This document shows, one piece after another, positions 1 to 20,395 of a stretch of 20,395 bases of DNA. Numbering within the stretch: position 1 is the stretch's first letter; every line of letters begins with the position of its first letter. The notes beneath the pieces were generated by a model, which was not told where the DNA came from, ran no database searches, and was given only the letters and a program-made list of their open reading frames with translations. Both the position numbers and the translations under genes were made by a program. The stretch is taken from IMG/VR virus record IMGVR_UViG_3300017741_000081, positions 1-20,395 of that record. The stretch is one strand, 5' to 3'. Source of the DNA: a virus.

Positions 1-72
1 ATGGACAATGACGTTGGTCGGGTGACCGTGATCCCTGGTCAGTGGATCGTGGACAAAAAAGAAATAACTTGA
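1..72 (+). CDS. C-terminal end of an unidentified phage gene (partial)
   Basis: An open frame runs from the first base of the window to a TGA at 70-72. The visible 23 residues end in VIPGQWIVDKKEIT. The ATG at position 1 could be a start, but this is more likely the 3' end of a larger gene that begins outside the window. The next gene begins inside this one, either at GTG 42 or at TTG 69, where TTGA overlaps the stop by four bases; this suggests one co-transcribed plus-strand unit. The fragment is too short to assign. In many phages Mom-like genes sit next to packaging genes, but nothing here proves that. Confidence 0.4.
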   Translation: MDNDVGRVTVIPGQWIVDKKEIT

Positions 73-548
73 ACATAGAAATACAAGAAACCTCAGCAGC
101 TGTCGCTTGTAAACTAAACGAGGTATGGCACTCTCGATTACCTCAACTTCATCCAAGTAATGTGTGGCGATCTAAAAATTATATTTGTTTTTTATTTATT
201 ATAGACGAAGCAGTCGTCGGTGTTGGCATTTGGTCATCCCCTGTGGCTCGAATGTTAAGTAATAAAACACTACTAGAGCTGCGTCGGCTAGCTCTAAGTA
301 AACATTGTCCTAAAAATACAGCAACATATGTTATCTCTAAAATGATTAAAACAATTAAAGAAAAATTTCCCGACATAGAAAAGGTAATATCCTATCAAGA
401 TACGGCAGTGCACTTAGGTACGATCTATAAAGCTGCTAATTGGACACAATCGAACATTAGTACTGGGGGCGAATGGGCAAGAAAATCCAGGTCTAGAAAT
501 AAAGTACAAACAGCAGTTCCAAAAGTGCGTTGGGAATATTCTATTTAA
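42..548 (+). CDS. Mom/GNAT-like putative DNA-modification protein
   Basis: The 168-aa protein looks like the phage Mom / GNAT-fold group. The N-terminal part has WHSRLP (residues 29-34) followed by a His. A beta-strand-rich core with GVGIWSSPVAR (about 60-70) comes next, then the block LELRRLALS...PKNTATYVISKMIK (78-103), then ISYQDTAVHLGTIYKAANW (116-134), which I recognise as typical of Mom-like and XF1762-like acyltransferase-fold proteins. In phage Mu, Mom converts adenine to a carbamoylmethylated form that protects phage DNA from restriction; a similar role is inferred. No classic acetyl-CoA pyrophosphate loop is evident. The GTG start at 42 overlaps the previous frame by 31 bases; TTG at 69 gives a neat 4-base TTGA overlap and is a good alternative. 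It could instead be a GNAT enzyme of other function. Confidence 0.6.
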   Translation: MDRGQKRNNLNIEIQETSAAVACKLNEVWHSRLPQLHPSNVWRSKNYICFLFIIDEAVVGVGIWSSPVARMLSNKTLLELRRLALSKHCPKNTATYVISKMIKTIKEKFPDIEKVISYQDTAVHLGTIYKAANWTQSNISTGGEWARKSRSRNKVQTAVPKVRWEYSI

Positions 549-617
549 AAGTCAAGTAATTTATTTTAATTTTACAGTAGAAATTTTTCCACAAACTTTG
601 ATATACTAGAGGTTCGC

Positions 618-782
618 ATGAAACAATATAACCTAAACATAGACGCACTACTTCCTACAGAACTAAGAAATCTGTATATAGCATCATTACAAAATAAATT
701 ATCCAAGGGCGAGTGTCCTTGTGGCGAAGACTGTGCTTGCAAAAAAGCGAAAGATCAGGGCGTAAAACTAGGTCAGCGTTAG
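618..782 (+). CDS. Small Cys-cluster protein, unknown function
   Basis: ATG at 618 is preceded by AGAGG at 608-612, a good ribosome binding site five bases away. The frame encodes 54 residues ending at TAG 780-782. The C-terminal half has CPCGEDCAC (residues 33-41), four Cys in nine residues followed by Lys-rich sequence, which suggests a small metal-binding (zinc-ribbon-like) protein. The N-terminal half is a likely helix (ALLPTELRNLYIASLQNKL). Its stop codon overlaps that of the convergent minus-strand gene at 779. I do not recognise a family. Confidence 0.62.
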   Translation: MKQYNLNIDALLPTELRNLYIASLQNKLSKGECPCGEDCACKKAKDQGVKLGQR

Positions 783-12428: not shown

Positions 12429-13475
12429 TTATCTGACAGATAATATACCAGTTCCATAAATGTTGTTAGTACTTTTTTGCATTTCTGCTAATCTACTATC
12501 AACGGAACCACCTTCAGCTCTAAAGATTGACTCTTCACCAAATATTTCATTTGATTTATTTAAAGCATCATCAAATTGTTGATTACTAATAGAACTTACT
12601 TGTCCGTTTTGAATTTGCATGTTGTTTTGATTGTTGTTACCAACATCTGATGCCATTATCTCTGCTAATAATTCTCTTTGATCAGGAGGCATTACTTTAA
12701 ACCCAGGTGGTTGTTGAGGTAATCCATAGAGTGTTGAAGGTACCATTGTATCTAATTGTGTTATACCTTGTTTAATTAAATCTGCTTGTTGTTTAGCAGT
12801 CATTTGTTCTTTTTCAGTAAGAGAAATATCCTGTAGTTCAGGATCTTTTAGTATACTTAATTTATGTCTTGAGGGATTTGCAATTTTTTCTTTTTGAACA
12901 TCTGTTAAAGCGCTTATCTTTTCACCAAGCTGTTGTCTTTTTTGATCAACAGTATCTGATAAACCTCTAAACGCATTGACAGCTAAACCAAATAATCCAC
13001 CGGAACCTAAATACTGTTGTGCTGCTTGACCAACACCTTGTGCAAGACTACCTAATCCAAAACCAATATCTCCCATGACTTCTCTTGTCGTAGGACCATA
13101 TTGCTGAACTAATCTTTGTCTTTCTTGCTCTAACGTTCTAGGAGCATCTAGCTTCATTTGAGTGACACCCGTAACACGACTTCCTGTATCTGTATAAACA
13201 GGCTTTGTGTATAGGTTTTTGAATCGCTGAAGTTCATCAGCTTGCTTCATTCTTCTAGCTGCTCTGTCGTCAGAGACATCTGGTCTGTTGGAAAAGAATT
13301 CTTTACGGCCTCTAGCAGCGTCTAAATCTCTAGCGATATCTGCTTTACTCGTTCTAGCTCTACTGATATTCGCTCTTGTTTGAGCCGCTCTACTAGTCGG
13401 TGCTGACCCTGGCGGGCCTCCTGACGGCCTAGAGGGTCTACTAATATTAGCTCTTCTTCTACGTGGTGGTGCCAT
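12429..13475 (-). CDS. Virion-associated protein, basic N-terminus, GG motif at C-terminus
   Basis: The 348-aa protein starts with a strongly basic, Pro/Arg/Ser-rich, probably disordered segment (MAPPRRRRANISRPSRPSGG) that could bind DNA. The middle has a Gly/Ala-rich stretch (IGFGLGSLAQGVGQAAQQY, about 137-155), and the C-terminal third is Gln/Asn-rich, with FRAEGGSVDSRLAEM near 316-330, a GG motif shared in style with two other proteins in this operon. The gene is coupled to the 1373-aa gene (TAATG) with AGGAAA upstream. By position and composition it is a structural or ejected internal virion protein; no function is known. Confidence 0.85.
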   Translation of the reverse strand: MAPPRRRRANISRPSRPSGGPPGSAPTSRAAQTRANISRARTSKADIARDLDAARGRKEFFSNRPDVSDDRAARRMKQADELQRFKNLYTKPVYTDTGSRVTGVTQMKLDAPRTLEQERQRLVQQYGPTTREVMGDIGFGLGSLAQGVGQAAQQYLGSGGLFGLAVNAFRGLSDTVDQKRQQLGEKISALTDVQKEKIANPSRHKLSILKDPELQDISLTEKEQMTAKQQADLIKQGITQLDTMVPSTLYGLPQQPPGFKVMPPDQRELLAEIMASDVGNNNQNNMQIQNGQVSSISNQQFDDALNKSNEIFGEESIFRAEGGSVDSRLAEMQKSTNNIYGTGILSVR

Positions 13476-16400
13476 TAACTTAATTTTCCTATAGCCCTAT
13501 TAGTTAGGTCTGTTATTGTTCCTTGCCTAAATCTAACATCTACATTAGCGTTTGTCGAGCCTTGTCCTTGTCCGGTGACAATGGTTCCTGGACCAGTGTT
13601 CGTGGTTGGTGATTGAGGAGTAACCGGAGCGCTGGAATCAAATATAGGAAAGTCTAAGAAGCTTGTAATTTCCGGTAAAGTAAATTCAAAGTTTGGGTTG
13701 TCCGATAAACTTTTACCTGTATTAGCTTGTAAGTATTGTTTAATAGGAGAGAAAGCTTTTTGAAAAGGATTACTTAGGGGTTGTCCTGTCTCTCTTACCA
13801 AATCTAAAGCGTTTTGATAAAATAATCTTTGCACTTCGTCAGATGGTTGATAAGGAAGGTATCTATTTGTTAATAAAGCATTTTTGGTTTTCTTAGAAAC
13901 TCTATCTAATTGTTTATTTAATTCTTTTTTATTTATTCCTAATCTTTCTGCTGCTTGAATGTCTTTTCTAAAATCTTGAAAAGCTTTAAATCTTTGAGCT
14001 TCTCCTCCATAGTACTGCTCTAAAACTTGTTCAGGAGTCATTTGTCCGCCTCTTAATACGTCTCCTAAAAATGTAGCTCTAGCAGAAGCAATTCTTTTAT
14101 TAAAATCGGATACCATAAATTTAAAACTATCCTCTACATCTAATTCAATATTTCTAAATCCAAAAATACCAGGAAGTTCATCGGATAAATCATAAACTCT
14201 TCCATACTTATCTGGTTTAGACATCACGGAATCTTTTATTCTACCCGCTTGTTTAAGAGAACCTGGGGCAAAAGTTTCTACAATGTGCATAGTTCCTTTG
14301 TAAAGTTTTTCTCCGACAGGATCTTCTGGTCTAAAAATAGCACGTCCATCTCTTGACCTACCTTGTCTAATTAATAGATCAGTCATCGCTTCTGTATAAA
14401 TAGCTTCAGATAAAAATGGTTTAACAAGTTCTTTCATTGCCATCACCCCGCCATCTAATAATCTTTTAGTCATTTGTTCGTTAGTTGATTCACCCTTTTG
14501 AAGTTCGTTAAACATTGTTTTGCCTGGTCGTAACAAAGCATCATAAGGGTAGATATAAGATAAATCTAAGTATTGAATTCTTCCTGTTCTTTCATCTTTG
14601 CCAGTTGGCACGAGTAGTCCGTTTTGAGACCATGAAGGAACAAATCTTCTTAAAGCTTCCATGTCTTCTGGTAAAAATCCAGATAATTGTTTTCCTAATT
14701 CTACAGCTCCCACAGGTAAAGCTGCACCTGTTCCTAAAACTCCTGCCATTCTTCTCATACCTTGAGCTCTAGTCTCTTGCATAGAAAGAAGTCTCATAGA
14801 ACTCTGTAAAGTATTAAAACCTGTTCTAAGTATTTCAGCAGGGAAAGAAACGAACGTTCCAATAGGAAGTTTTCTCAAAGTTTTAATGCCTTGACCTACA
14901 TATTCATAGTTAGGTATGTTATTTCTAGTAGAGTCTGCTGCTAAATTCTTAATCAAGGCACCTAAAGAGTCTTCTTCAATTGATTGCTTTGCATTTGATG
15001 GATCTATATCTTTCCCTACAAAATAAATAGGATCATTAATGTTAGTTTTTCTATCTATAATTTTTCCAACTCTATCGTTTAATCTATTAAATATATCTAA
15101 ATCTCCGCTCTCTCTAAGTTCTTTTAACATAGCATCTTTTGTAGGGCCTGCTTCTAGATTTTCAGCAGTTCTTACTTTTTTAATTATCTCACTCAGCTTT
15201 CCATCTTCAATGTTTTGAGATCTAAGAAAGTTTTTAACAAAACCATCTTTAAAATTTCCCTGTTCAAATCTGTAATTATATATTTTCCAAAAGTCATCCT
15301 CTGCCAAGTAAGTATTCACTGTCCAATCTTTAACTCTTTTTAATCTCTGACCTAACATATCTAATGTTCCACCTGTTAAATCTTCTATCTTTTGTCCTAG
15401 ATTTAAACTAGATACATCTTTACCTAAGTCAGCTAGTTCTCCTACTTGTAAGTTAGTTCCTCTAACCCCTCTTCTTCCATAATCTAAATATTCTTTTAAT
15501 GCTTCAGGATCAAATCTCCTGTTTTTTCCGAAACCTCTTTGCCCTCTTCTAAAAGCTTCTAAACTTTTGGTGAAAGCCTCTATTGTTTTTTTAGGGTTGG
15601 TTAAAGAAATATTTCCATTCATCGTTACGAAAGCAGCAGCACTTAAAATGTTTCTAAAGTGAGTGAAAGGAGAAAAAAGAGTTTTGGCTGATTGAGAAAA
15701 AGATTTAGGCGCTAAAATAAAATACTTATATAGATTACTATTTAAAACTCCTTTAGCAGCATCTGTTTGCTCTGCAAAAGCCTCTGCCATTTCTCTACTG
15801 GTGTATGCTCCATCCAAAGCTGTTGGTAATCCTAATTTACTAAGTCCTCCTACTTGACCTAAATTTACGACTTCAGTGGTTCCAAAAGCTGCTTGCGCTG
15901 CTGATTGTCCTGATATTTTTTCTCCTGTTTTTGTGGCATCATCAAAGAAAAATATTTTTCCTTTTCCTAACTTTGCTAAATTTGTAAGCATAGATAGTTC
16001 TGTTATTAAAGCACCTTGTTTTGCTATAGTTGAAGATAAAACATAAGCAGGATCTTTTATTTCTCCTAAGATAGCTTTAATTTCAGGTGGAATTTTTTGT
16101 TTTGCTTTTAATATTCCTGTATCAACGTCTAACCCTAATCTCTGTAGAACACCTTTATTTAAAGGAGTTTCTAAATTTTTAATATTACCATCTAAAATAT
16201 TTTCTAAAATTTCTCTAGCTTGAACATCAGCGTCAACTACTTTTACTCCTTGTCCCTCTGTATCTAATATCTGTCTTTTTATAAACTGAAAAGCATTTTC
16301 TAAAGATTCACTAGAGGGTTTATATTTTGCAAAAGCAGATCCAAACTTATTATTTTTTTCAATTAATTTATAAGTTGTGGTTAAATACTCTCCCAAATTT

Positions 16401-17596
16401 TTTTCTATTGTATCTCTTAAAGCTATCGCTCCTTCAGGCACTAAGTCTCTAATTTGATTTGATAAATTATCTACAAAGTCTCTAGCATTGTTTACAGTAG
16501 TAAAAATTTCATCTTGTTTTGTAGCATTAACTCCTAATTCATTTAAGACTGTTTTTAGTTCGTTCTTTTGTTCACTTTTTAAAGATTGAAGAATTGCTGC
16601 TGATAATTTATTTTTTTGTTCTGGCTTTAATTGTTGAGCAATATTTCCTGTTTCATCTAAAATATCTTCAAATACTTGTTGTAGATTAGCGCCAACAGCT
16701 TTACCTTGAAAACCAAACTTTTCTGATTCTCTTTGAAATTGTCTTAAAAGTTCTTCTGCTTCTTTAGGTTTTACTCCTTGAGCTGTTAATTTAGATAATA
16801 GTCTCTTTGATGAGTCAGCGATAGGATCTCTTGTAAATTTATATTTAACAGAATCTGCTCCTTTTTTTAAAAAGCTAAAAGCTCCTCCTATTCCAGCAGT
16901 CAGCAATGCTCCCTCTGAAGCAAATTTTAATCTATTTTCTATCTCTCTTAAAGCTTCTGACCTGCCTTCTCTCTCCTGCTCGTCTCTTTGAGTCGGACCA
17001 AAGCCTATGGCATCTCCAATCGTTCCAATTTCTTCATCGGCAAAAACAAAATCTGCCAATGCAGAACCACCTAGTCCGCCTCCAAATAGATAAGCTCTAT
17101 CCGCTAAAGATCTTTTTAGCTTTTCACTTTTACCTAAAATTTCTTTTTCCGCTCCTCTAAGAGCTTTCTTTTTTTGAGCAAAATCTAGATCTTTAAATTT
17201 TTTAACTTGTCCTTTAGAAGTTAGATTAGCGTAGCGATTTGCTCTTTTTGCCTTTAACCCTTGCTTGGCTAATTGTGTTCCTAATTTAAATCCTGCTGTG
17301 GAGGGGACACCAAGACTAACTAATGTTTCAGTTAGTTTACCAACCATGGTTTCCTCAGCTAGTTCATCAAAAGGATTGATATTGTCGAAAAATAATTCTA
17401 CTTCTGTGGCTGTATCTGTCCCTGCTCCAAGATCATAAAGTGTTGCGCCTAAAGAAAAAAATCCTTCTGGTATTTTCAAAGCACCAGATCCAATACCCGC
17501 TAAAAAACTTTTTACGCCTTGATATTTTTCTTCTTTATCGTTTGCTAATCCTGATGGATCGGGACGATCAATTAAATTTGGATCGACGATAGCCAT
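13475..17596 (-). CDS. Very large internal virion / DNA-ejection-type protein (1373 aa)
   Basis: This is the longest gene of the window, about a fifth of it. The N-terminus has SGALKIPEGFFSLGATLYDL (36-55) and INPFDELAEETM, which I recall from large structural proteins of marine phages. The protein is mostly helical and charged, with several Gly/Ala-rich hydrophobic patches (for example FGGGLGGSALADF near 172, LLTAGIGGAFSFL near 230, AGVLGTGAALPVGAVE in the last third) that could enter a membrane. Such length, composition and the neighbours fit internal core proteins ejected with DNA by short-tailed phages. I see no lysozyme, transglycosylase or polymerase motif. It starts one base after the previous stop. 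Confidence 0.88.
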   Translation of the reverse strand: MAIVDPNLIDRPDPSGLANDKEEKYQGVKSFLAGIGSGALKIPEGFFSLGATLYDLGAGTDTATEVELFFDNINPFDELAEETMVGKLTETLVSLGVPSTAGFKLGTQLAKQGLKAKRANRYANLTSKGQVKKFKDLDFAQKKKALRGAEKEILGKSEKLKRSLADRAYLFGGGLGGSALADFVFADEEIGTIGDAIGFGPTQRDEQEREGRSEALREIENRLKFASEGALLTAGIGGAFSFLKKGADSVKYKFTRDPIADSSKRLLSKLTAQGVKPKEAEELLRQFQRESEKFGFQGKAVGANLQQVFEDILDETGNIAQQLKPEQKNKLSAAILQSLKSEQKNELKTVLNELGVNATKQDEIFTTVNNARDFVDNLSNQIRDLVPEGAIALRDTIEKNLGEYLTTTYKLIEKNNKFGSAFAKYKPSSESLENAFQFIKRQILDTEGQGVKVVDADVQAREILENILDGNIKNLETPLNKGVLQRLGLDVDTGILKAKQKIPPEIKAILGEIKDPAYVLSSTIAKQGALITELSMLTNLAKLGKGKIFFFDDATKTGEKISGQSAAQAAFGTTEVVNLGQVGGLSKLGLPTALDGAYTSREMAEAFAEQTDAAKGVLNSNLYKYFILAPKSFSQSAKTLFSPFTHFRNILSAAAFVTMNGNISLTNPKKTIEAFTKSLEAFRRGQRGFGKNRRFDPEALKEYLDYGRRGVRGTNLQVGELADLGKDVSSLNLGQKIEDLTGGTLDMLGQRLKRVKDWTVNTYLAEDDFWKIYNYRFEQGNFKDGFVKNFLRSQNIEDGKLSEIIKKVRTAENLEAGPTKDAMLKELRESGDLDIFNRLNDRVGKIIDRKTNINDPIYFVGKDIDPSNAKQSIEEDSLGALIKNLAADSTRNNIPNYEYVGQGIKTLRKLPIGTFVSFPAEILRTGFNTLQSSMRLLSMQETRAQGMRRMAGVLGTGAALPVGAVELGKQLSGFLPEDMEALRRFVPSWSQNGLLVPTGKDERTGRIQYLDLSYIYPYDALLRPGKTMFNELQKGESTNEQMTKRLLDGGVMAMKELVKPFLSEAIYTEAMTDLLIRQGRSRDGRAIFRPEDPVGEKLYKGTMHIVETFAPGSLKQAGRIKDSVMSKPDKYGRVYDLSDELPGIFGFRNIELDVEDSFKFMVSDFNKRIASARATFLGDVLRGGQMTPEQVLEQYYGGEAQRFKAFQDFRKDIQAAERLGINKKELNKQLDRVSKKTKNALLTNRYLPYQPSDEVQRLFYQNALDLVRETGQPLSNPFQKAFSPIKQYLQANTGKSLSDNPNFEFTLPEITSFLDFPIFDSSAPVTPQSPTTNTGPGTIVTGQGQGSTNANVDVRFRQGTITDLTNRAIGKLS

Positions 17597-17597
17597 G

Positions 17598-18956
17598 TTA
17601 GAAATTGAAGACGTCTATGTCCTCTAAAATTAAAAAATCATCTTCTATTGTTAATACTTTTTTCTTTTTATCCTGTAGAGAAGAATCTTTTGGTATACCC
17701 ATAAAAATTTTACCTGTTTCATTATCTTGAAACTTAAATCCTTCTCCTTCAAAAAATTTCTGTTGTATCATTTTTTTATCATATCCCCCTTCTACTATAA
17801 ATGGAGAGGTATCTAATAATAAAGTCGACGGAATAGCTCCTGCTGATCTGGCTGCAGCTACATTATTTGGGATGTTTTGTGAATCCTGTGCTGCTGTAAA
17901 TCTTTCAAAGCTAGTTGCTGTTTTAGGATCATCTTTTAAAAGAGTTTCATAAACTCCATAAGCTTCATTTATAGGAATATTTTTTATCCTTGCAATATCT
18001 CTTACAGATTTACCAATCGTGGATAAATCAGCTTCACTTTCAATTTCTGTAAGCAATTGTTTTTCTCCAGATTCAATTGCTGCTAATTCAATCGCTCTTT
18101 CATCTTTTGAAGCATCTCTAGCTAAAGCTGCAAATGTTTGTAAAGGATCAGTCGCTGATTTTGCAATTTTCTCTGCTAAGTTTCCTCCTCTAGCTGCTGC
18201 TAAATTTAAACCAAACTGCGCTAATTGTAAGAAGCCTTGTTGTTTTAATTGTTCTTTTGGATCTCCTAATAATTTTTTATAAAGGTCGGATCTTTCTTTT
18301 ATAATATCCTGTAATTTGGATAATCTATTATCTTCATCGACAACAGGATCTGGTAGAGGGTCTCCTTCTCCACTTGTTCCTTCTGTACCTGAAACTGTGT
18401 TATTGGCCTCAAAGAAAGATTTAGCCCCTGCTTGCATATTAGCAGCATCCTCTCTTGTAGCCATTGCTTTTTGTGACTCTAAAACTTCTTTCTTTTTTTC
18501 CTCTGCTCTTTTTTCTCGAGGAGTTTTCTTTTCGTCTTCTTCACCTAACTCTTTAATTACATCGGTAAAAGTTTTATTTTTTTCTTGTTCTCTTCGTTCT
18601 TTTCTTTTTTGAGTGGCGCTTTGAGCATCTTTAACATCAGCAAAACCCTTCAAAATATCCATACCTTCTGCGGCACTTTCCTGCATACCTTTTGCTACAC
18701 CCATATTGTCTAAGCCAGCATAGGCTTTTAAAACTTCTTGAGGAGACATTCTCTCGTATTCTTCTAAGGTTAATCTTTTAAACATGTTAAAAGGAGGTTT
18801 ACCAGAAATAGCACCTGACTCAGTGTATCCCAAATCAACGCCTCCACCATTATTCATCCTTACAACACCACCATTAGCAAAAGCCGGTAGACCATATCCC
18901 CGTAGCTGGTCCTTGGTCAATGGTCGTTGAAACATCGGTCTATCTAAAATAGCCAT
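17598..18956 (-). CDS. Virion-associated protein with N-terminal GG motif and charged linker (452 aa)
   Basis: The N-terminus has LPAFANGGVVRMNNGGGV (23-40), a Gly-pair motif common in proteins of marine phages. Residues about 113-165 are extremely Lys/Glu-rich (KRKERREQEKNKTF, EKRAEEKKKEVL) and probably form a long helix or coiled coil. A more conserved part follows, QFGLNLAAARGGNLAEKIAK (about 246-265), then SATDPLQTFAALARD; I recall this block from marine phage structural genes. It ends acidic (EDDFLILEDIDVFNF). The ATG at 18956 directly follows the previous stop and takes its ribosome binding site from the codons for that protein's last two Gly. Role as internal or tail-associated protein is inferred. 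Confidence 0.86.
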   Translation of the reverse strand: MAILDRPMFQRPLTKDQLRGYGLPAFANGGVVRMNNGGGVDLGYTESGAISGKPPFNMFKRLTLEEYERMSPQEVLKAYAGLDNMGVAKGMQESAAEGMDILKGFADVKDAQSATQKRKERREQEKNKTFTDVIKELGEEDEKKTPREKRAEEKKKEVLESQKAMATREDAANMQAGAKSFFEANNTVSGTEGTSGEGDPLPDPVVDEDNRLSKLQDIIKERSDLYKKLLGDPKEQLKQQGFLQLAQFGLNLAAARGGNLAEKIAKSATDPLQTFAALARDASKDERAIELAAIESGEKQLLTEIESEADLSTIGKSVRDIARIKNIPINEAYGVYETLLKDDPKTATSFERFTAAQDSQNIPNNVAAARSAGAIPSTLLLDTSPFIVEGGYDKKMIQQKFFEGEGFKFQDNETGKIFMGIPKDSSLQDKKKKVLTIEDDFLILEDIDVFNF

Positions 18957-19898
18957 CTAACCTCCAAACAAGGAACTAATACCACCGAATGTTCCTCCCG
19001 CTGAACCATAAGCACCAAGTCCTGCGATGCCTAATCCTAAAGCTTGTTGAAGAGCAGAAGGAGTGGGTTGTTGTGTGTATGTAATTTGTGATGAGGGAAC
19101 GCCTCGTAGAATATCAGAAGCAAAAGCTGTTCTTTCAAACGGTTCTTTTTGCTCTGCTAAAGTTGTTGCTCTTGCAGCTTCAATCTGTGCTTGACCAGGA
19201 ACGAATGCTCCTCCTGGTCCTTCGAAACCAAACTGTTGTGTCAGTTGTCCAAGGCCCAATAACCTGTTGATATCTTCACCACCTAGCTGTTGTCCTAGTT
19301 GTCCTAAGCCTGCTTGTCCTTGAGCAGCTTGTAGTGTTTGTGTTCCAATTGTACCAAGTTGTTGTGCTGTTGCTCTTTGAGCTTGTTGTGCTTGTAAATA
19401 GTTTCGTGATAAATCTTCAAAAATTCTTTGTGATTGAACCTGAGCTAAGTTCCTAGCTTCTTCTGCTTCACGAACACCGAATCGTGATCCACCAAATGCA
19501 CCTGCTGCCACGGCTTCGGCAGAAGTTCTTTGTCCTTGAATATCAGATTGTCTTTGTAATTCAGCTAAAGCTTCTTGTGTAACTTGTTGTTGATAAGGAT
19601 CCATGTATGTAGAAATTTGTGATGGATCTAAAACTTCTTGAGCGGCACCAATTGCTTCTAAGCCTGTACCAATGGTTGTCCTTGCAGCCTCTAGGTCTGG
19701 TTGATAGGCACCAAGTCCTGCTTCTGCTCTTTGAATGGCAGCTTGTTGTTGGGGAGTTAAGCCTGCTACTTCATATGCAGGGATCTCTGAAGGTCTAGAT
19801 GCTAGTCCTTGTGAACCAAACACAGACTCTAATAATTTTTCTGCTCTCTCTTCAATAAAGGGTGCTTGTCGTTGATATTGGTATATTGTTTCAGCCAT
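18957..19898 (-). CDS. Gln/Ala-rich virion-associated protein (313 aa)
   Basis: The protein is very rich in Gln, Ala and Gly. Recognisable blocks are RQAPFIEERAEKLLESVFG (10-28), ISTYMDPYQQQVTQEALAEL (95-114), AAGAFGGSRFGVREAEEARN (130-149), FASDILRGVPSS (about 258-269) and a Gly-rich hydrophobic C-terminus (LGLGIAGLGAYG). This pattern recurs in structural gene clusters of marine phages, in my recollection, without a proven function; long helical Gln/Ala-rich proteins like this may line the internal core or be ejected. Its last codons, GGA GGT TAG, followed at once by ATG, provide a perfect ribosome binding site for the next gene. Its own ATG overlaps the previous stop (TAATG) with AAGGT upstream. 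Confidence 0.86.
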   Translation of the reverse strand: MAETIYQYQRQAPFIEERAEKLLESVFGSQGLASRPSEIPAYEVAGLTPQQQAAIQRAEAGLGAYQPDLEAARTTIGTGLEAIGAAQEVLDPSQISTYMDPYQQQVTQEALAELQRQSDIQGQRTSAEAVAAGAFGGSRFGVREAEEARNLAQVQSQRIFEDLSRNYLQAQQAQRATAQQLGTIGTQTLQAAQGQAGLGQLGQQLGGEDINRLLGLGQLTQQFGFEGPGGAFVPGQAQIEAARATTLAEQKEPFERTAFASDILRGVPSSQITYTQQPTPSALQQALGLGIAGLGAYGSAGGTFGGISSLFGG

Positions 19899-20395
19899 TA
19901 TGCTACCTTACTTTCAAATTTATCCATCATGTCATACATCATCTTAGCGCCCTTGCGACGTTGTTCTACTTTATCATCTTTATTTGCACCATTCAATGCC
20001 CCAAGTCCTCTAACTGCAGCAGCAGTCATAACAAACTCACCATCAGATAACATTGCAGGGATGTCATCAGATTTCTCTGTCCCTGGTCCGTCGATCTGTC
20101 CTGTTTTACGAGGGAAACCTCCCTCAGCAACTCTTGCAATGGGTTGCAATGTCGGAGCTGATGCTCCGTATCTACCTGTTGCAGTATCATAATACGTGGC
20201 CCTCGGCGCACTGACATCGAACATACCTTGGCTACCAGGTTCAATCTGTGCTGGTGGTGGCATACTTGTATCTTCTTCTTTAAAAGCCCCCATAGCACCT
20301 AAAGCACCAAGGCCTAAAGCACCTTTAGCTAAAGGACTCATGCCTTTAAATGCACCCATTGCTTTTTGACCTAAAGTTTGTTTTGCAGCTTGCTG
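19898..20395 (-). CDS. Structural protein with tape-measure-like IPAMLSDGEF motif (partial)
   Basis: The frame is open to the window edge (12 codons beyond ATG 20359 without a stop), so the gene is probably cut at its 5' end, though ATG 20359 could be a start. A Gly/Ala-rich hydrophobic stretch (GALGLGALGAMGAF) is followed by a Pro-rich linker, then VAEGGFPRKTGQIDGPGT and DDIPAMLSDGEFVMTAAAV, then RRKGAKMMYDMMDKFESK at the end. The IPA-L-GEFV block matches one that appears in phage tail tape-measure and related proteins (form VPALLTPGEFV). It heads the visible structural operon. A tail or connector-associated role is inferred. Confidence 0.85.
   Translation of the reverse strand, partial: QQAAKQTLGQKAMGAFKGMSPLAKGALGLGALGAMGAFKEEDTSMPPPAQIEPGSQGMFDVSAPRATYYDTATGRYGASAPTLQPIARVAEGGFPRKTGQIDGPGTEKSDDIPAMLSDGEFVMTAAAVRGLGALNGANKDDKVEQRRKGAKMMYDMMDKFESKVA

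Follow-up and report, generated by a model that had tools for sequence, protein, structure and literature searches.

A likely Mom-type DNA-modifying enzyme of compact size in a marine tailed phage, encoded without a detectable Com partner

Introduction

The DNA modification of phage Mu is named N6-(1-acetamido)-adenine in PMC10286901. Does the mom-like gene at the start of the viral DNA analysed here encode an enzyme of this kind, and does it depend on a regulator comparable to Mu Com? The window, i.e. the whole stretch of DNA under analysis, is a 20,395-base viral record with a G+C content of 36%. A preliminary description had placed a Mom-like gene “outside the classic Mu context” at its beginning, and had suggested that a small Cys-cluster protein encoded directly downstream might parallel Com.

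Profile searches identified genes for a primase, a helicase and a family A DNA polymerase in the window. The nearest polymerases are those of phage 023Pt_psg01 (49% identity) and Pelagibacter phage HTVC023P (47%), followed by phage DSL-LC04 (47%) and Pelagibacter phage HTVC027P (42%); Mom was found in none of these four named phages. A run of large reverse-strand genes at 12429–19898 gave no or marginal matches. It includes an open reading frame of 1373 aa (13475–17596, − strand) with no match among PHROGs (E 0.1) or Pfam families (E 0.05).

Results

Coordinates, start codon and selection

The 168-aa reading frame described at 42–548 is present and holds both of the sequence blocks quoted for it. 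Its start was revised: the frame itself is real, whereas GTG 42 is replaced by TTG 69, giving a gene of 159 aa at 69–548 (+ strand). On comparison of the sequences TTG 69 is almost surely the start, because 5 of 15 relatives (L002–L006) have in-frame stop codons within the stretch corresponding to 42–69. At 69, each of L001–L012 reads TTG or GTG (the latter in L012 and L002–L004), and the more distant L013–L015 have neither codon. The start codon (69–71) overlaps the TGA stop (70–72) of an upstream gene, the 3′ end of which occupies 1–72 on the + strand, and translational coupling of mom to this preceding gene is therefore possible. In L012 the upstream product has 101 aa and is devoid of Cys, and the upstream gene gave no Com match; the sequence 5′ of mom in L005 is unrelated to that of the window.

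Among seven sequences, pN/pS ranged from 0.00 to 0.14 for mom and from 0.08 to 0.63 for the small downstream gene. As all 21 pairs gave a ratio below 1 in each case, the reading frames at 42–548 and 618–782 both behave as genes. By this measure, mom is under strong purifying selection.

Family assignment and fold

The mom-like protein scored 67.5 bits against Pfam PF25680 (Mom; cut-off 27.1) and matched phrog_1384 (Mom-like DNA modification protein) at 6e-26, while no ordinary GNAT Pfam family appeared at E values up to 0.1. In a phmmer search of PDB sequences, phage Mu Mom (8BV8, 5.8e-4) was the sole match up to E 1, and a 50-sequence profile was aligned to Mu Mom with 94.8% probability (E 4.9e-8). 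NCBIfam NF045478, the XF1762 family, which is named without a function, reached 48.7 bits and thus stayed just below its 50-bit cut-off. At the level of sequence, membership in the Mom family is far above chance.

The AlphaFold model (pLDDT 87, pTM 0.83) gave a concordant result. Foldseek returned 8bv8_B as the best of 350,542 chains at 2.3e-9, followed by an unrelated GNAT at 7.1e-8. With VIA-align, 8bv8_A reached Z 16.6 at an rmsd of 2.5, a remote similarity of 20% identity over 147 aligned residues, and the runner-up reached Z 15.4 at 9% identity, so that the margin to Mu Mom is only 1.2 Z. The structural comparison with ordinary acetyltransferases that the preliminary description had called for thus ranks Mu Mom first, with ordinary GNATs close behind, as is expected of proteins that share one fold.

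A further distinction is provided by the loop before helix 3, which in ordinary GNATs carries the pattern [RQ]xxGx[GA]. This pattern was missing at the expected place in all 81 sequences compared (the window and 80 of 164 relatives); a stray copy occurs near the C-terminus in three of them. Its place is taken by a Mom-type loop, P-[KRT]-[NYF]-[ST]-x-[ST], in 81/81. On Pfam, Foldseek, VIA-align and the loop pattern, a GNAT of the ordinary type is not the favoured reading.

Active site and sequence blocks

Mom reportedly binds iron and acetyl-CoA. Its active-site positions in Mu, which we take to be H58, R111, D149 and Y159 (NP_050657 numbering), were considered together with S124, as the PDB title of 8BV8 calls the S124A mutant of Mu Mom “inactive”. 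Mu H58, R111, S124, D149 and Y159 align with H28, R73, T86, D111 and Y120 of the window protein. In the set of 81 (the window plus 80 of 164 relatives), R73, D111 and Y120 are invariant and position 86 holds either Thr (66 sequences) or Ser (15), with the reservation that L021–L100 were found by the peptide patterns CPKNTAT and YQDT[EA]VH and conservation at residues 80–86 and 109–115 is inflated for that reason. Position 28, the counterpart of Mu H58, is less uniform in the same set (His 61, Asp 17, Val 3). H21 of the WHSR motif is again invariant among the 81. The Mom-like identity proposed at the outset is supported by the profiles, by the structural match and by the residues aligned with the Mu active site.

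Of the two blocks that had been quoted as typical of Mom, the second has a Mu counterpart, with SFADERCGRAGVVYQASNF aligned to SYQDTAVH-LGTIYKAANW. The first, WHSRLP, occurs neither in Mu nor in seven further named Mom-like proteins (WHSR in 0 of 8). Judged from these sequences, WHSRLP is the mark of a distinct compact clade, not a general Mom block.

Relatives and distribution

Two alignments were used. A1 joined the window to 13 loci from the first set of 15 relatives, L003 and L005 being omitted; A2 joined it to 49 of the 50 loci that passed a 95% filter, without the nearly identical L021. A 58-row tree separates the window clade of 50 from the eight named Mom-like proteins with support of 99/96; a branch of length 2.63 divides this clade from the Mu-type proteins, and the tree is to be read with a long-branch warning.

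Matches to the window protein occur in 182 of 50,697 public phage records, and Mom domains, including fusions to nucleases, are described for jumbo phages in PMC7824862. The location outside the classic Mu context is hence true as claimed, but it was known already. Mom outside Mu is well known, and the window gene is an unremarkable though well-supported member of the family. The PF25680 cut-off was passed by all four proteins tested, from Pelagibacter phage HTVC034P, Vegas, P12002L and Mu. HTVC034P gp61 (809–1276 of locus L017), annotated as hypothetical, is a remote Mom member at 29.8 bits against the cut-off of 27.1; its gene directly precedes that of the terminase large subunit. A narrow search of bacterial genomes, covering 300 pattern stretches, returned no relative by tblastn.

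The genes around mom vary among the relatives, several of which have DNA methyltransferase genes near mom. In L012 a C5-cytosine DNA methylase gene (19321–19911 of that record) lies between a SNF2 helicase gene and a gp32-like gene; the window has no room for it at the corresponding position. A different small gene stands directly 3′ of mom in L033, L034, L036 and L046 and encodes a 68-aa protein of CxxC...CxxH type. The copy in L014, from the same record as L034, gave no Pfam match over cut-off and marginal PHROG matches only. A C5-methylase gene comes after the CxxC...CxxH-type gene in L013 (by sequence) and L014. The window itself carries a ParB-like gene (1802–2548, − strand; phrog_12305 at 1.9e-24) about 1.2 kb from mom.

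The small downstream gene and the Com question

A Cys-cluster protein of 54 aa is indeed encoded at 618–782 (+ strand), starting 69 bases after mom. The two genes are adjacent in 14 of 81 loci (the window and 80 of 164 relatives). In these copies, from the window and 13 loci, the N-terminal half of the small protein is kept, while the C-terminal Cys cluster is not: four Cys are present in seven, two in two, and none in five. In L044 the Cys were lost by point substitutions in a protein that is otherwise very similar. The Cys spacing, which had been offered as a likeness to Com, did not bear comparison either. It reads CxCxxxCxC near the C-terminus, whereas in Mu Com two CxxC pairs lie well apart in the N-terminal part; PMC6483171 gives that protein as 62 aa with an N-terminal four-Cys zinc finger. 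No Pfam family was found for the small protein at E 0.1, under conditions in which Mu Com matched PF10122 at 2.7e-9. A Com search across 40 records, many of them fragments (the window, 38 further Mom-bearing viral records, and Mu), gave a match in Mu only. Com matches thus numbered 0 in 39 Mom-bearing viral records, with a positive Mu control.

The gene order likewise differs, as Mu com precedes mom and overlaps it by 80 nt; the Mu-type layout, with com 5′ of and overlapping mom, was not encountered in the window. The intergenic stretch at 549–617 (+ strand) is conserved and contains an invariant, extended −10-like TTTGATATA element, which precedes the small gene in all 12 sequences compared. 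A scan for promoter sites found 6 against 5.6 expected and is worthless alone because this is chance level; only the conservation of TTTGATATA counts. The small gene is a separate gene with what is likely a promoter of its own, as far as the sequence indicates. Com of Mu acts on a hairpin in the mom mRNA and turns translation on. A translation-inhibiting RNA structure at the start of mom is unsupported by fold z-scores of 0.14 (L001) and −1.54 (L012), a weak test because the Mu region itself, at −1.70, barely stands out. The proposed parallel between the 618–782 protein and Com was rejected because the Cys are not kept, no Com profile matches, the gene order is reversed and the small gene has its own −10-like element.

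Exchange of alleles at the mom locus

Among the 80 loci compared, two cases of divergent mom sequences in closely similar surroundings were identified, the other pairs having less similar flanks. In the first, L001/L021 and L044 have divergent mom alleles within near-identical flanks. Between L001 and L044 the flanks show 85–100% identity in most 60-base steps (75% in one), whereas mom shows 50–77%. The L044 allele is close to that of L047, with 86% identity in DNA and 94% in protein. In the second case, L034 and L046 agree mostly at 97–100% in the upstream flank, apart from three steps at 62, 84 and 90%, and at 100% over the first 120 bases of mom. The remainder of mom falls to 48–85%, followed by about 240 bases 3′ of the gene at 97–100%, beyond which the two diverge; the breakpoint is inside mom after about 120 nt.

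Since divergent mom sequences lie between near-identical flanks, these comparisons indicate that mom alleles are exchanged by recombination at a fixed locus among close relatives. The pattern suggests that phages profit from carrying different alleles where hosts differ in their restriction systems, and a match of this kind would be the simplest reason for the exchange. Judged by titles and abstract openings, no paper dealing with the exchange of Mom alleles or with Mom in pelagiphages was evident.

Discussion

We consider it likely, by analogy with Mu, that the product of the window gene is a compact enzyme of the Mom family, belonging to a marine tailed phage, with Mu-like chemistry and without Com. 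If the Mu enzyme is a guide, the window protein would bind acetyl-CoA late in infection and modify freshly synthesised phage DNA with an acetamido-type group at N6 of adenine; host restriction enzymes would then no longer cut this DNA. Expression of mom would be free of Com control, possibly relying instead on translational coupling to the preceding gene through the stop-codon overlap. The window Mom thus probably decorates phage adenines as a protection against host restriction.

A GNAT that descends from the Mom family and now acts on another substrate (a protein, peptide, small molecule or tRNA) is conceivable because Mu Mom is a distant match and the structural scores of ordinary GNATs come close to its own (Z 15.4). 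The variable residue aligned with the Mu His, the long branch to the Mu-type proteins and the near-match to the XF1762 family fit such a change of function. Conversely, Mom is the best match in both sequence and structure, the Mom-type loop is kept in every one of the 81 sequences, and DNA methyltransferase genes lie near mom in several relatives; we regard a different substrate as rather unlikely. A modification-plus-nuclease conflict system, comparable to the nuclease-fused Mom domains that PMC7824862 reports for jumbo phages, recalls Synechococcus phage DSL-LC03, in which an annotated type II restriction endonuclease gene precedes mom, and could draw on the ParB-like gene in the window. However, no nuclease is fused or adjacent to the window mom, and the ParB-like gene lies on the other strand and recurs in only one of the 15 relatives of the first set (L001), several of which are short. 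Such a system is very improbable here.

The regulatory pair foreseen in the preliminary description, in which the downstream Cys protein would bind mom mRNA through zinc, can claim the adjacency of the two genes in part of the loci, the small size of the protein and the four Cys in half of its copies. It is contradicted by the reduced or absent Cys in the other half, including the point substitutions in L044, by the lack of a PF10122 match and of Com in all 39 viral records where the controls were positive, and by the reversed order and the conserved −10-like element; the unremarkable RNA fold around the mom start adds little, the test being weak. We hold a pair of this kind to be extremely unlikely. 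A Com-like role of the 618–782 protein was rejected on Cys loss, profile and gene order.

Returning to the reading as a Mom enzyme without Com, one can go further and propose that the WHSR clade forms a Mom subfamily of distinct function, in which the invariant H21 lies in a loop that holds a different His in Mu, and Thr stands for the catalytic-site Ser of Mu. Its alleles, swapped either entirely or over the final two thirds at one fixed locus, would differ in sequence specificity or in the group added, comparable to the shuffling of restriction specificity genes, and phage lineages would thereby switch their DNA decoration to match host restriction. We offer this as speculation with a small chance of being right. 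Under the favoured reading, a rare type of DNA modification would reach into a large set of phages from the environment, some of them marine, and a Com partner need no longer be assumed. If the allele exchange reflects selection, Mom would be an anti-restriction gene whose variety is maintained by recombination, and the paired alleles of L001 and L044 represent a ready comparison for the effects of mom variation. Modified adenines would also disturb the sequencing and restriction digestion of such phage DNA.

Comparison with known systems

Mu Com (PF10122) and the small protein of the window are alike in being small, in having four Cys (in the window copy) and in being encoded beside mom; they differ in profile, Cys spacing, gene position and Cys conservation. 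In Mu, com overlaps mom, whereas the window has no overlapping com and belongs to a marine phage that is not Mu-like. No com is annotated beside mom, either, in the regions read from Paenibacillus phage Vegas, Polaribacter phage P12002L, Enterococcus phage PMBT2 and Pelagibacter phage HTVC034P, all represented in phrog_1384. The XF1762 family (NF045478) is a near neighbour of the window protein, below its cut-off. Mu Mom (NP_050657; 8BV8) is the larger protein, with 241 aa against 159 aa, and has an N-terminal extension and a C-terminal tail, both absent from the window protein; it carries Ser124 where the window has Thr, and no WHSR block. What the two have in common is the Pfam family, the GNAT fold and the aligned positions R111, D149, Y159 and H58.
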